Shown here: one piece after another, positions 7,627-36,748 of the stretch | Numbering within the stretch: the stretch's first letter is position 1 | How the letters are laid out: each line of letters opens with the position of its first letter | NCBI GenBank assembly: GCA_903862955.1 | Contig: CAIPAH010000015.1 | Span: 1-36,748 of the forward strand | DNA length: 36,748 nt | Direction: 5' to 3' | Source of the DNA: an uncultured Opitutia bacterium | GTDB lineage: Bacteria; Verrucomicrobiota; Verrucomicrobiia; Opitutales; Opitutaceae | The notes under the pieces: model-generated | Databases searched by the model: none | Seen by the model: the letters and a program-made list of their open reading frames with translations, nothing else | Told to the model about the DNA's origin: nothing | Program-made: the position numbers and the translations under genes

Positions 7627-7698
7627 AAGCCGGAAGCCAGCCAACGTTCGCAGTCCAGTTTGCCTCGTGCGGATTCCTGGTTTCCTGGCTTCCGGCTT
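7627..7698. repeat. Inverted repeat, AGCCGGAAGCCAG family (copy 1)
   Basis: AAGCCGGAAGCCAG at 7627-7640 is the perfect reverse complement of 7685-7698, with a 44-nt spacer. A 24-nt stretch ending in the right arm (7674-7697) recurs identically at 27313-27336. The copy lies between two minus-strand genes. Confidence 0.85.
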
Positions 7699-9743: not shown

Positions 9744-9844
9744 CGGTGACCGGATAGTGCACATCGGCCCGCGGGATGAAAATACAGAATACACGCATAG
9801 TCTGCGCTGGAACCGCCGGGCGCGCGGGCGCAAAGTGGCTCACC

Positions 9845-10759
9845 ATGAATCCGCCCCGCGATTTGAAACTCGGCATCATTGGGCTCGATACGTCGCACGT
9901 GCTCGTCTTCAGCGACACGTTCAACAATCCCGCCTCCAAACAAGCGATGAAGGGCGCGCGGGTGACCATGGCGTGGCCGGGCGGCTCGCCGGATGTGGAT
10001 TCCAGCATCAGCCGCGTGGCCGGCTATACGGCCGAGCTGAAGGACAAATTTGGGGTCACGATCGTGGACAGCCCGGAGGCGGTGGCGCAGGTGTGCGACG
10101 CGATCCTGCTCACGTCGCTCGACGGCCGCACGCATCCCGGGCAGTTCGCGAAGATCGCGCCGTTCGGCAAACCGGTGTTCATGGACAAGCCCTTCGCCGT
10201 GAGCACGGCGGACGCGAAGGCGATGTTCGCGATGGCGAAGAAGCACAACGTGAAGCTGTTTTCGTCATCGTCGCTGCGCTTCACCGAGGCGCTGGTCAAG
10301 GTGGTGACGCCGGAGAACAAGGCGACGGTCAAGGGCGCGGATTTCTGTGGCGCGGCGGCGCATGAGCCGACGAACCCGGGGCTTTACTGGTACGGCATCC
10401 ACGCCGTCGAGATGCTCTACACGACGATGGGCCGCGGCTGCCGGAGCGTACGCTGCGTCTCAAACGCCGACTACGACGTGGCGACCGGAATCTGGGCGGA
10501 CGGGCGGCTCGGCACCGTGCGCGGCAACCGCACCGGGAACTACGAGATGCACGGCCTGGTGCACTTTGAGAAGACGACGGTGCCGGTGAACGTGCAGACG
10601 CAAGTGAAGCCGTTCTATGCCAGCCTCGCGGAGGCGTTTCTGGCGTTCTTCCAGGGCGGGGCCACGCCGATCGACCCGGAGGAGACGATTGAGCTCATCC
10701 GCTTCATCGAGGCGGCGAACGAGAGCAGCGCGAATGGCGGCAAGGAAGTGCAGCTGTAA
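9845..10759 (+). CDS. Gfo/Idh/MocA family oxidoreductase
   Basis: 304 residues from the ATG at 9845. The Rossmann loop is the variant LGIIGLDTSHV (9-19) rather than GxGxxG, a form seen in a branch of the Gfo/Idh family. The cofactor/active-site motif is KPVFMDKPFAVS (DKP in place of EKP, about 117-128). The C-terminal half has the predicted beta-sheet substrate domain (YWYGIHAVEMLYTTMG). Such enzymes oxidise or epimerise sugars and cyclitols with NAD(P). It is 85 nt upstream of a GH36-like gene on the same strand, so it probably processes the sugar released by that enzyme. An upstream extension in frame to 9776 is not supported. Confidence 0.88.
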   Translation: MNPPRDLKLGIIGLDTSHVLVFSDTFNNPASKQAMKGARVTMAWPGGSPDVDSSISRVAGYTAELKDKFGVTIVDSPEAVAQVCDAILLTSLDGRTHPGQFAKIAPFGKPVFMDKPFAVSTADAKAMFAMAKKHNVKLFSSSSLRFTEALVKVVTPENKATVKGADFCGAAAHEPTNPGLYWYGIHAVEMLYTTMGRGCRSVRCVSNADYDVATGIWADGRLGTVRGNRTGNYEMHGLVHFEKTTVPVNVQTQVKPFYASLAEAFLAFFQGGATPIDPEETIELIRFIEAANESSANGGKEVQL

Positions 10760-10804
10760 ATGCATGGTGGGGTCACGGAACCCTGCCGTCATGGACGCAA
10801 GAAG

Positions 10805-13310: not shown

Positions 13311-13424
13311 GTTGGCCATGAAGAGGCACAAAACGGCGCAAGAAAAGACCTTGGGATTCGGGTCAGGAGCCAGAATCGAAGCGGCAGAATTTTTTGCGCC
13401 GTTTTGTGCCTCTTCGTGGCCAAC
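13311..13424. repeat. Long inverted repeat, GGCCACGAAGAGGCAC family (copy 1)
   Basis: Left arm 13311-13346 and right arm 13390-13424 are near-perfect reverse complements over about 31 bp (one mismatch in the GGCCA(T/C)GAAGAGGC part), separated by 43 nt. It lies between the convergent GH36 and enolase-superfamily genes, where it could act as a bidirectional terminator or message stabiliser. Confidence 0.9.
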
Positions 13425-14593: not shown

Positions 14594-14697
14594 TTGGCCA
14601 CGAAGAGGCACAAGAAGGCGCAAAAAAGAAAACATGCGGAGTCCGGGTTGGAAATCAGGGGCCGAGTTTTGCGCTTTTTGTGCCTCTTCGTGGCCAA
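14594..14697. repeat. Long inverted repeat, GGCCACGAAGAGGCAC family (copy 2)
   Basis: Left arm 14594-14625 pairs with right arm 14667-14697. The arms match those of the copy at 13311-13424 but with GCACAAGAAGGCGC in place of GCACAAAACGGCGC. It fills the gap between the TIM-barrel isomerase and enolase-superfamily genes, so it is inside a presumed operon. Confidence 0.88.
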
Positions 14698-19265: not shown

Positions 19266-19335
19266 TTGGCCACAAAAAGGCGCAATGGAGGCTCTGCCGC
19301 AGCCCCGAGCCCCTGCGTGCCTCTTTGTGGCCAAA
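19266..19335. repeat. Inverted repeat, GGCCAC...GCGC family (short copy)
   Basis: TTGGCCACAAAAAGGCGCAA (19266-19285) pairs imperfectly with 19314-19335 (TGCGTGCCTCTTTGTGGCCAA). It lies 7 nt after the heparinase-like gene and before a convergent gene, a terminator position. Confidence 0.8.
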
Positions 19336-24092: not shown

Positions 24093-27000
24093 TCAGGCCA
24101 TGCGGCCTGTGGTTTGTGAAAGCTGCAGGCTGATGATTTCGTAGGGGGAAAAGGCCAGACGGCCGTTGCGCAGTGGGGCGGCGATAGGTTGGCCGAGGAG
24201 ATCCACCTTGCGGGCCGACCAGCCCGGGGCGAGGTGGAGCTTCGCGGTGCCGCGCTGGCCGGCGACTTCGTGGAGGCGGAGGGTCCAGCGGGTGCGGGTC
24301 TCGGGCTTCGCCCAGTGGGGGATCAGCGTTTCGCCGCCTTCGAGGCCGCGGAAGGCGGACGCCACCGGGGCGCCGCGGTAGGCGACGGGAGGGGTGAAGA
24401 GGTTCTCGGCCTGCGCGGCGGGCTGCTCGGCGCGGGGAGCGGCGAGGTCGTAGAAGCCGAGGGCGAGCTCGATGGTGTGGCGGCCGAGGTCGGTGTAGAT
24501 CGTGGCGGGTTTGGGCAGGCGGCTGAGCTGCTGGGGATAGGCGCGGCCGTGGTCCTCGTAGCCGACGTGGCGAGGGGTGCGGAGGAGCGTGACGGCGAGG
24601 TCGCCGTCGCGGACGCTGACGCCGTATTTGTTTTCGGTCAGCGCGAACAGGCCGGAGCGTTCGCCCTCGGAGCTGACTGTGGCCCAGCGGCTCATCGGCC
24701 ATTCCCACATCGCCTCGGCCTCGCGCGTCGTCGCGAGCTGCGGACGCAGCACGCTGCCAAAGGGCGTGCCGCAGCGGACCTCGCGTCCGCGGTACGCGGT
24801 GGGGAAATGCAGCTTCAACAGCGAGTTCTCCTCGTTGTAATCCAGCTCGACGGTGACGCGCAGCACGCTCGCGCCCGGCTCCAGCCAGTAGCGCACGGTG
24901 GCGGTGCTGGCCGCGCCAATCTGGCGGGTGACGGCGAGGGAGTTCTTGCCGGCGGTGATTTTGGCGGGGCCGTGGGCGGGCTGGCCGAGCGAGAGCGCGG
25001 CGCGGTCGATGTCCCACGGGCCGAAATTCGCGGCGTGGTCGGGGTAGGCGACGAGCCGGCCGGCGCCGGCGGAGAGTTCGACGGAGCGGCCGTCCACGCT
25101 GAGCGCGGCGAGTTCGCCGTTCGCGGTGAGTCTTGCGACGACGCAACGGTTTGAAAGGGTGCGGCCTTCGACGGTAACGGGCGGAACGTTGCGCACGACG
25201 GCGTGAGAGAGGCGGATGCCGGCGAGCGGGGGAAGGTCGACGACTTTACCGGCGACGACGCAGCGGCGGGCGAAGGGGAGCGGGTTGAAGAGGCAGGACT
25301 CGAGGTGGAGCGTGTTGCCTTCAACGCGCTTGTTCGCGGATGGACGTTTTAACGCGTTGGGGGCAACGCGTTCCACCTGTCGGAGGGCTGCGGCGGTTTG
25401 CTCACGTGTGAGCTTAGCCAGTTCCGGCAAGCCCTTCACGTAAACCTCGGGGATGGAGCTGCCGGGGATGTAGTCGTGGAATTGCGCGAAGACCATGCGG
25501 CGCCAGGCGTGATCCAGGCTGGATGGAGACGCGACGCCCTCGTCGCGTTCGGAATTCCGCGACGGGGGCGTCGCGGCTCCAGTTGCCACCAAGACGGCTT
25601 CTCGAAGTTGCAGGGAGCGCTCGAGGTCGCGGAAGTGGGACTTCACGCGGCTCTGCGTCGTGAAGGTGCCGCGGTGGTATTCGAGGTAGATTTCGCCGTC
25701 GAGGGCGGGCAGCGACGCGCGCTTGGCGGCGAGGCGGTCGAAGTAGGCCTCGGGCTGGTCCCATTTCAGCGCGGGAAGGCCGCGCAGGCCGGAAAGCCGG
25801 CGGGCGCGCTCGCACATTTCCTCGCTCGGGCCGCCGCCGCCGTCGCCGTAGCCGTTGGGCATGAGCGTTTCGTCGTGGATGTCGCCCTGCTGGTTCTGGC
25901 GCGACGTGGCGAGGAGTTCGGCGACGGAGAGGGTGTTGTTGAACTGGATGCCCTGCGTGACGTGGCTGACGACCGCGTGGCCGCCAGCGCCGCGCCAGAC
26001 GAAGCTCGAGTGCGGGAAGCGGTTGACGGTGTTCCAGGTGGTCTTGGTCGTGAAGAAGTAGTCCACGCCGCTCAACTTCATCAGTTGCGGCAGGCACGCG
26101 CTGAAGCCGAACAAGTCGGGCAACCAGAGCACGCGCGAGCGTTGGCCGCTGAGTTTCTCGAATGACTCCTGGCCGAGGATGAACGCGCGGGCGAGGCCCT
26201 CGCCGGTGGGCACGTGGGAGTCGGCTTCGACGTACATGCCGCCGGTGGCTTCCCACTGGCCCGAGCGCAGGCGGGCGCGGACGGCGCGGTGCAGCTCCGG
26301 CGAGCGGCGGCCGACGGCCTCGTAGCTCGCTGCTTGCGAGTAGGCGAAACGGAACTCGGGGTAGAGCGCCATCAGCCGGTTCATGTTCGAGAACGTGTGC
26401 ACGGCCTTGCCCTCGCCGATCTGCTCGGTCCAGAGCCAGACGAGGTCGAGATGCGAGTGGCCGGTGAGCGCCGCGCGCGCGAGCGGCGCGGCATCGCGCA
26501 TCTCGTGATAGACGGTGGCGAGCGCGCGGCGGAGGGCGTCGACGCCCGACGAGTCGAACGCGTCGAGGGCGGTGTCGAGCCCGCGCAGCAGCTTGCGATA
26601 GAGCGGCGAGACGTCGGTCAGCGGGACCTGCTGCGTCATGGCGCCCAGTTCCTTCGGCACGCCGGGAAGTTCGCGAACGCGCAGCTCGAGCATGTAATCG
26701 TAGAGGCAATTCAGGTCGTGATACGCGGCCCACGCGGCGTCATCGCGGCGCAGCAGCGAGGCGTCGCGGAAGAGATTGCCGGTCTCGGCGAGGCCCTTGG
26801 CGTCGGGGTGCCAGACGGCGGCCTGCACGCAGAGCGACTCGACCCAGACCTCGCGCACGCCGGCGGGAAGCTCGACCGTGCGGTGGGCGACGTCGAAGCC
26901 GTAGAACGGCGTGCCGTTGACGAAGAGCGTCGCCTCGCCCTGTTCGTCCCAGCGCATCCAGCGCGGTCCGCCCGCGGGGAGCGTCACGCGACACCAGCGC

Positions 27001-27209
27001 TGATCGTAGAGCCGGCCCCAGGTTTCCCCGTCGCGGACGGGCCGGCGCGGAGCCTTCTTGCCGGTGGCGAGCGGCACGTGCTCCGGGCGGGACGCGGTGG
27101 CCTCGACGCGCAGCGGGCGGGCGTCGGACCAGATCATTTCAGCCAGGCGCAGCACGCCGCGCTGGGTGCGCAGGGGCGTGAGCGAGATCAGGGGATTGAG
27201 CGGCAGCAT
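24093..27209 (-). CDS. GH38 alpha-mannosidase
   Basis: 1038 residues from the ATG at 27209. Family signatures: ALTGHSHLDLVWLWTEQIGE (about 247-266; zinc ligands His and Asp), LWLPDLFGFSACLPQ (361-375; the Asp of PDLFG is the nucleophile), GDGGGGPSEEM (455-465) and FAQFHDYIPGSSIPEVY (574-590). A beta-rich C-terminal region follows. The enzyme hydrolyses alpha-mannosidic bonds with a bound metal. No signal peptide, so it is probably cytoplasmic. Two stretches, residues 543-563 and 611-636, are encoded by large palindromes and flank the conserved FHD block; both look like insertions. It is divergent from the nucleotidyltransferase gene. Confidence 0.93.
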   Translation of the reverse strand: MLPLNPLISLTPLRTQRGVLRLAEMIWSDARPLRVEATASRPEHVPLATGKKAPRRPVRDGETWGRLYDQRWCRVTLPAGGPRWMRWDEQGEATLFVNGTPFYGFDVAHRTVELPAGVREVWVESLCVQAAVWHPDAKGLAETGNLFRDASLLRRDDAAWAAYHDLNCLYDYMLELRVRELPGVPKELGAMTQQVPLTDVSPLYRKLLRGLDTALDAFDSSGVDALRRALATVYHEMRDAAPLARAALTGHSHLDLVWLWTEQIGEGKAVHTFSNMNRLMALYPEFRFAYSQAASYEAVGRRSPELHRAVRARLRSGQWEATGGMYVEADSHVPTGEGLARAFILGQESFEKLSGQRSRVLWLPDLFGFSACLPQLMKLSGVDYFFTTKTTWNTVNRFPHSSFVWRGAGGHAVVSHVTQGIQFNNTLSVAELLATSRQNQQGDIHDETLMPNGYGDGGGGPSEEMCERARRLSGLRGLPALKWDQPEAYFDRLAAKRASLPALDGEIYLEYHRGTFTTQSRVKSHFRDLERSLQLREAVLVATGAATPPSRNSERDEGVASPSSLDHAWRRMVFAQFHDYIPGSSIPEVYVKGLPELAKLTREQTAAALRQVERVAPNALKRPSANKRVEGNTLHLESCLFNPLPFARRCVVAGKVVDLPPLAGIRLSHAVVRNVPPVTVEGRTLSNRCVVARLTANGELAALSVDGRSVELSAGAGRLVAYPDHAANFGPWDIDRAALSLGQPAHGPAKITAGKNSLAVTRQIGAASTATVRYWLEPGASVLRVTVELDYNEENSLLKLHFPTAYRGREVRCGTPFGSVLRPQLATTREAEAMWEWPMSRWATVSSEGERSGLFALTENKYGVSVRDGDLAVTLLRTPRHVGYEDHGRAYPQQLSRLPKPATIYTDLGRHTIELALGFYDLAAPRAEQPAAQAENLFTPPVAYRGAPVASAFRGLEGGETLIPHWAKPETRTRWTLRLHEVAGQRGTAKLHLAPGWSARKVDLLGQPIAAPLRNGRLAFSPYEIISLQLSQTTGRMA
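25303..25378. repeat. 76-nt palindrome inside the GH38 coding sequence (element B)
   Basis: AGGTGGAGCGTGTTGCCTTC begins the left arm (25303-25328), which matches the reverse complement of 25353-25378 with four mismatches in 26; a 24-nt spacer lies between. It stays in frame and encodes about residues 611-636 of the mannosidase. Confidence 0.88.
25524..25581. repeat. 58-nt palindrome inside the GH38 coding sequence (element A)
   Basis: Left arm 25524-25547 and right arm 25557-25581 are reverse complements over 24 bp with two mismatches, with a 9-nt spacer. It is in frame and encodes about residues 543-563, between the toroid segment LREAVLVA and the conserved LDHAWRRM. Confidence 0.9.
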
Positions 27210-27283: not shown

Positions 27284-27340
27284 TTTTAGCCGGAAGCCAG
27301 GAATCGGATTGGTTCCTGGTTTCCTGGCTTCCGGCTAAAA
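27284..27340. repeat. Perfect 20-bp inverted repeat, AGCCGGAAGCCAG family (copy 2)
   Basis: TTTTAGCCGGAAGCCAGGAA (27284-27303) is the exact reverse complement of 27321-27340. It lies in the divergent gap between the GH38 and nucleotidyltransferase genes and shares a 24-nt identity with the copy at 7627-7698. Confidence 0.9.
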
Positions 27341-36684: not shown

Positions 36685-36748
36685 AAGTAGCGCAGGCGTC
36701 CCCGCCTGCATCATCTGCACTGCAGGCGGGGACGCCTGCGCTACTTCA
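36682..36748. repeat. Long inverted repeat at the end of the kinase-like gene
   Basis: Left arm 36682-36710 begins TGAAAGTAGCGCAGGCGTCC and includes the stop codon of the gene; right arm 36721-36748 is its reverse complement apart from one extra A. A 10-nt loop lies between. Both arms hold the CAGGCGTCCCCGCCTG core, itself nearly palindromic. The window ends at the last base of the arm. Confidence 0.92.

Follow-up and report, generated by a model that had tools for sequence, protein, structure and literature searches.

A GGAG-tagged, REP-like hairpin dimer in frame within a GH38 α-mannosidase gene of an uncultured Opitutia bacterium: a probable mobile element tolerated as a linker

In this study, we describe a 58-nt palindrome, here called element A (25524-25581, minus strand), which lies in frame within a GH38 α-mannosidase gene of an uncultured Opitutia bacterium. 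We consider it very probable that element A is a REP dimer (REPIN), which would have been moved in trans by a REP transposase and would since have been tolerated as a translated linker. The window, i.e. the whole stretch of 36,748 nt that was analysed, belongs to a genome of 3.61 Mb in 31 contigs (genomes, contigs and loci carry our own G, C and L numbers). The host gene (24093-27209, minus strand; 1038 amino acids plus stop) was identified by aligned orthologues and by its Pfam matches (PF01074, PF09261, PF07748 and PF17677). It harbors element A inside the Alpha-mann_mid match (residues 511-607) and, ~150 nt away, a second in-frame dimer that was absent from the preliminary description of this DNA.

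Element A is built from two arms of 24 nt (25524-25547 and 25558-25581), which are 92% complementary with two mismatches and enclose a 10-nt loop. On the gene strand it reads as a GGAG-tagged hairpin (5' unit, 25558-25580, minus strand), a 10-nt spacer (25548-25557) and an inverted hairpin ending in CTCC (3' unit, 25525-25547, plus strand, tag outward). As read from the sequence, each unit could form a 7-bp stem with a 4-nt loop, and the minimum-energy fold of the whole element is one long hairpin. Folded as single-stranded DNA, the 58 nt reach -28.1 kcal/mol compared to a shuffle mean of -13.2 (z -7.1), and none of 200 shuffles is as stable. Inverted repeat and fold together confirm the in-frame palindrome that had been claimed earlier. 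Counted from the ATG at 27209, the element starts at the third base of residue 543 and ends at residue 562 (..T GAATPPSRNSERDEGVASP). No target-site duplication was recognisable by eye at the GH38 junctions, and Rfam, searched with gathering thresholds over the whole window, returned no match.

Comparison with orthologous loci shows that the stretch is an addition to the gene. When 38 non-redundant loci were aligned with MAFFT, the residues encoded by element A proved to be present in only two, the window and L077, the latter from a separately assembled genome of a congener (G011), while the other 36 have a short linker at this place. These loci are the window, L074-L104 and L120-L125, since L109-L119 represent the same contigs as eleven of them and L108 is the window itself. 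From the first set of loci, 31 of 34 were aligned (L105 does not contain the region, and L106 and L107, only 28-30% identical, were omitted); from the second set 18 of 30, the other 12 being distant paralogues. The earlier proposal that residues 543-563 form an inserted linker, missing from most GH38 homologues, is thereby upheld. Relative to the empty sites of L081 and L074, the net gain is 42 nt in the window and 54 nt in L077. This is less than the 58 nt of the element, and hence some linker bases were lost or replaced.

Element A belongs to a dispersed family. Allowing at most one mismatch, its unit is matched six times in the window genome, where it is sparse and where two matches are element A itself and four lie elsewhere, 52 times in G009 and 65 times in G011; a reversed control pattern gave 0 or 1 match per genome, and 1 in the window genome. 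The preliminary description had suggested that further copies of the arm be sought in the parent genome, and such copies exist. Matches occur in 9 of the 12 genomes of the genus, including G005 with 8 and G003 with a single one that equals the control. With a stricter dimer pattern, 4 of 61 genomes of the bacterial family were matched, namely the window genome, G009 and two of other genera; the family of element A thus occurs in its own genus and in two other genera of the same bacterial family. Head-to-head dimers make up 31 of 38 examined clusters in G011 and 15 of 34 in G009, and 24 of the 35 two-unit clusters of G011 have spacers of 13 or 14 nt. Furthermore, the stem pair left free in the search pattern covaries: among 147 unit matches it is G-C in 130, A-T in 12 and another pair in 5 (A-C 3, C-G 1, G-T 1). 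Little speaks for a chance palindrome or an assembly artefact beyond the fact that element A is one GC-rich inverted repeat on one contig. We regard this explanation as practically negligible, as it is refuted by the shuffles, by the separate assembly that yielded L077 and by the family's presence in 9 of 12 genomes against 0-1 control matches.

REPs of the GTAG class are defined by an unpaired terminal tag that conforms to GTAG, degenerate mainly at its second and third place, and by a short loop on a stem of 6-13 bp. Their stems vary by complementary changes, they frequently form head-to-head dimers with the tag outward, and they occur in many, mostly intergenic copies (Di Nocera et al. 2013, PMC3733652). 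The family of element A shares with them the stem-loop, the covarying stem, the head-to-head dimers and the dispersal. Its tag is GGAG; the text of PMC3733652 gives GYAG, GYRG, GTRG, GTMG and GTGG, without GGAG, and other families of the window genome carry GTAG or GTGG. The preliminary description knew of no report of in-frame palindromes for this kind of bacterium, which was mistaken: GTAG-class REP dimers lie within ORFs of Opitutus terrae, where they are most numerous among the species examined, code for 20-30 residues, occur twice in some ORFs and include a GTGG tag variant (PMC3733652). Both cases share the family Opitutaceae, tagged hairpins, head-to-head dimers, copies within ORFs, two inserts per ORF and the GTGG tag. 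They differ in the GGAG tag found here, compared with the variants listed in that text only, and in that a cognate transposase was not found for element A.

The REPINs of Pseudomonas and E. coli, known from the REPIN/RAYT systems, likewise have two inverted REP units, set apart by a short spacer. The likeness extends to transposases, which here are flanked by matching hairpins of two other families, F7 and F2. The present case is different in that some copies are coding and in that no transposase flanked by the family of element A was found. The initial comparison with Rickettsia palindromic elements (RPEs) holds in part. RPEs too are in-frame palindromes that lengthen conserved proteins, and the effect, an added linker, is similar; two reviews report that Rickettsia guanylate kinase is active with its RPE insert, with changed substrate affinity (PMC2229807, PMC10969869). 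RPEs are, however, about 100-150 bp long and found in Rickettsia according to the same reviews (PMC2229807, PMC10969869), whereas element A measures 58 bp, comes from a different phylum and is built, like a REP dimer, from two tagged hairpins. A Rickettsia-type element was rejected on size and build, and element A is better filed as a tagged REP dimer (REPIN).

As was noted at the outset, the window's intergenic palindromes have a core unlike that of element A. The one at 36685-36746, at the contig end and not in frame within a gene, is a GTAG-tagged dimer of another family, F1, and the one at 27284-27340 is untagged and of another class. The latter and 7627-7698 are palindromes of the kind TTTTAGCCGGAAGCCAGGAA and kin, more copies of which occur in 20 stretches sampled from the genome. 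Long palindromes of the type TTGGCCACGAAGAGGCACAA are present at 13311-13424, 14594-14697 and 19266-19334, with kin in L160, L164 and L166, and GTCATTCTGAGCGCAGCGAAGAATCC palindromes occur in L163 and L166. Four contigs (the window's, C14, C17 and C19) end in or beside hairpins of the GTAGCGCAGGCG family, and the assembly thus probably breaks at such repeats.

Which enzyme might have mobilised element A can be approached through the transposases of the genus. The window genome encodes two transposase genes whose sole NCBIfam match is REP_Tyr_transpos, at 74 and 64 bits (E 9e-21 and 1e-17), both below the cut-off of 80; in Pfam, one lies above and one below the Y1_Tnp cut-off. Inverted hairpins stand on both sides of these genes and match families F7 (exact) and F2 (with 3 mismatches each). 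Of 17 transposase loci that were retrieved with the transposase of the window genome, nearly all have by our reading a tagged hairpin on both sides, L207 having only a 17-nt match and L206 both hairpins in the same orientation; the family of element A was looked for beside these loci and not found. Within 4 mismatches, it also stood beside the transposase in none of 29 loci, some of them cut by contig ends, which were retrieved with NCBIfam NF047646 and represent 10 of the genus' 12 genomes. Because none of these transposases is flanked by this family, the mobilisation of element A is argued by analogy. A REP-associated tyrosine transposase would have acted on it in trans, with single-stranded DNA as the mobile form, and the move would date to an ancestor of the window species and G011. 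For other tags, the biochemistry of such mobilisation, with cleavage at a tag-related dinucleotide, is known (PMC8266576). The dinucleotide CT precedes both GH38 copies of element A and the unit of L259, which would fit such a cleavage; it is absent before the four other in-frame 5' units of the family (those in the TrmH-type, RecD2, UxaE-like and ABC-F genes). As a separate observation, a longer transposase-like gene of 331 amino acids (G000:C22:240348-240758; L163 about 9784-10776) is flanked by inverted CTAACTTTTGTAGTT-type repeats, which lie outside the scanned tagged families.

The second dimer in the GH38 gene (25304-25377, minus strand; residues about 612-636, VERVAPNALKRPSANKRVEGNTLH) belongs to the GTGG-tagged family F2. 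At this place, called site 2, an F2 dimer is also present in L081, L074 and L075, as well as in L077, there with the 5' tag in a different codon phase, and L076, from outside the genus, carries a GTAGGAGC-tagged pair of another family. Altogether, site 2 is filled by a dimer in 6 of the 38 loci, by two families. In the GH38 protein tree (35 rows, three partial rows omitted, insert columns removed; quick IQ-TREE with SH-aLRT only), L077 branches first, then the window, then L081 with L074 and L075, with supports of 99-100. A clade of window and L077 is rejected on this quick tree (AU p 0.0006). The two carriers of element A are hence not sisters, and a single gain requires a clean loss or a transfer.

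In spite of the tree, the two copies of element A look like one insertion event when their sequences are compared. Their spacers are 2 edits apart, against 4 for the next nearest dimer and 6-8 for 42 of 53 dimers (the window's own included), although this argument gains in part from spacer length, as both copies have 10-nt spacers, most others 13-14 nt, and the length difference alone adds edits. The 3' unit is identical in both, as are the bases directly after the element. These similarities argue for common origin against two separate insertions into the same linker, an explanation that we find unlikely even though the tree separates the carriers and repeated hits on one linker do occur in the genus. 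One gain followed by clean loss, transfer between lineages and two gains are the histories to be considered, the last being less likely; with a single gain, element A would later have been lost or replaced in the lineage of G004, G002 and G006, or passed between lineages. The copies of the window and G011 differ at five bases, all in the 5' unit and the spacer. Two of these changes are a matched stem change from CGGCG/CGCCG to CGACG/CGTCG, and four of the five alter a residue, so that the peptide of element A is not conserved.

If the element arrived as a REP dimer, it would have survived within the gene because the loop is exposed and because the codons gained are whole in number and include no stop. 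It would then be translated into a flexible linker in which Ala, Pro, Ser and charged residues are frequent and which does nothing specific for the enzyme. An AlphaFold2 model computed from 19 sequences (mean pLDDT 76.9) is consistent with this. It places the element A stretch 549-563, with pLDDT < 50, between helices 521-543 and 565-578, and the second-element stretch 617-634, likewise with pLDDT < 50, between helix 587-614 and strand 638-641. Since few alignment rows hold the inserts (2 of 19 for element A and 5 of 19 for the second), low pLDDT at these places is partly expected.

As one would expect of REPs, tagged copies seldom lie in frame within genes. We scored clusters of tagged hairpins from about ten families with a home-made codon score, whose model was trained on 400 kb plus the window and called ~87% of bases coding. 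Across 20 stretches of 20 kb of the window genome, 3 of 30 clusters of all tagged families are in frame; the stretches were hand-picked and non-random, nine covering already known places, and the other eleven alone give 0 of 8. Elsewhere, 2 of 3 clusters in the window and 2 of 37 in loci fetched by pattern match are in frame. In a survey of seven genomes, which omits G005, G003 and some places in other genomes, the family of element A is in frame in 9 of 100 clusters among the matches listed, corresponding to eight separate events as GH38 is counted twice; the remaining 91 are not in frame by the home-made codon score, which is different from annotated intergenic. In-frame hosts in the window genome are, by Pfam, MnmA, a MeaB-type GTPase, a carboxyltransferase, an acetyl-CoA synthetase-like enzyme and a SpoU-type methylase. 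G011 adds an FtsY-type GTPase, an ABC-F-type ATPase, RecD2 and a weakly matched UxaE-like protein, the names FtsY, ABC-F and acetyl-CoA synthetase-like being interpretations of matches in Pfam and the PDB. In the window genome, the TrmH-type case is accepted by the first cluster scoring and fails the stricter scoring of the seven-genome survey. In the window genome, GTAG-only clusters are in frame in 1 of 38 cases compared to 6 of 24 for other tags (Fisher p 0.011, 8 mixed clusters omitted). A rule by which GTAG families avoid genes because one of their frames reads TAG is suggestive only, as families are confounded and the places were chosen by pattern.

MnmA provides a further case of a linker that has been hit repeatedly. 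Each of the 12 genomes of the genus contributed orthologues (L331-L343), in which the linker after ATGHYARR measures 8-9 residues in six species and is occupied by a tagged dimer in the other six. These dimers belong to four families, F2 in the window genome, GTAGGGGCGCTG in G011, the GTGGGTCGGGC type in G002, G006 and G004, and GTAGGGCGCGACC in G009, where this last family also adjoins a REP transposase gene (L200). Aligned with the E. coli enzyme 2der, MnmA of the window genome has most of its insert opposite gaps; the two hairpins of this insert are not alike, so that it escaped the screen for long inverted repeats and was seen as two F2 units. The MnmA linker of G004 contains an additional palindrome and has 71 residues in all. 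Different REPs at about one place have been reported in recB of Xanthomonas campestris and X. oryzae (PMC3733652). The situation here is alike, extending to four families in one MnmA linker across six species. Inserts were seen in other genes as well. RecD2 carries long in-frame inserts after GNVLKDLIA (about residue 516), of 44 residues in the window genome and 55 in G003, with others in G006 and G008 (L324, L326 and further loci), and within the 44-residue insert lies a purine-rich palindrome that belongs to another class. In both the window genome and G004, a SpoU/TrmH-type methylase (L160 and L305) has in-frame palindromic inserts, which differ in make-up and occupy roughly the same linker.

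A stable hairpin within a conserved gene might also be removed from the RNA or skipped by the ribosome, leaving the protein unchanged. Against this speaks that all six MnmA inserts, in genes picked out by homology and not by frame, are in frame and free of stops, and the same is true of the six GH38 carriers; a skipped element would need neither frame nor absence of stops. The RecD2 inserts at residue 516 are open as well, at least some of them being of another class. In G011, the GH38 gene maintains an open frame of 1052 codons through both inserts, the one reported stop lying beyond the aligned gene end. We therefore judge removal or skipping very improbable and retain translation of element A as the preferred reading.

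The in-frame copies appear to be unevenly distributed over the codon phases. In 13 of 15 in-frame 5'-tagged events, the tag starts on the first position of a codon (phase 0), for which equal thirds give a chance of 3e-5 (at least 13). These events stem from 17 rows, of which two pairs were merged by shared descent, with MnmA of G002 and G006 counted together with that of G004; single inverted units that have no 5' tag (FtsY-type, acetyl-CoA synthetase-like, L305) do not enter the count. The exceptions are the F2 dimer of L077, which may be one event with that of the window at site 2, and MnmA of G009. The coding flanks of L259 are weak (0.12 and 0.10), and without this locus the count is 12 of 14. 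GTAG-tagged events are at phase 0 in 3 of 4 cases, one phase being barred by a stop, and events with other tags in 10 of 11. Codon usage was ruled out as the cause for the GGAG family: in called genes GGAG is found at phase 2 in 1295 of 1488 cases, so that composition does not bring about the bias. For GTGG, at phase 0 in 1412 of 2222 cases, it is possible in part. We found no report of such a phase rule in literature searches that covered open-licence papers only. As the events are few and were gathered by us, the bias should be taken as a lead only.

These observations bear on whether the insertions are selected, REP dimers being kept as useful flexible linkers or as gene-regulating DNA or RNA hairpins. 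Different families have entered the same linkers (four families in MnmA, across 6 of 12 genomes, and two at GH38 site 2), phase 0 prevails in 13 of 15 events, and stems covary in the family and changed in a matched manner between the coding copies of element A, all of which would fit selection. On the other hand, four of the five substitutions in element A change a residue, peptides differ among families, most congeners do without the insert, and a hairpin can be maintained by conversion between units with no selection on the gene. On balance, we consider selection unlikely and continue to favor a REP dimer tolerated as a linker. A related idea, that REP dimers of unrelated stems repeatedly colonise the same linkers (MnmA, GH38 and possibly the TrmH-type methyltransferase) and persist almost only in phase 0, is put forward tentatively, as we consider it possible yet rather doubtful. 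If true, coding-compatible mobile DNA would recurrently lengthen linkers of conserved enzymes, and a rule of targeting or selection would set the phase.

In summary, element A provides a case in which empty and filled sites in close relatives may be compared for a REP dimer that became part of a coding gene. The occurrence of different families at one linker in many congeners is apparently new, as is the codon-phase bias, which serves as a lead; the MnmA linker with its several families and the phase bias make it testable whether such insertions are tolerated, aimed or useful. Finally, our findings call for caution, in that lineage-specific linkers in proteins of Opitutaceae may be repeat DNA.
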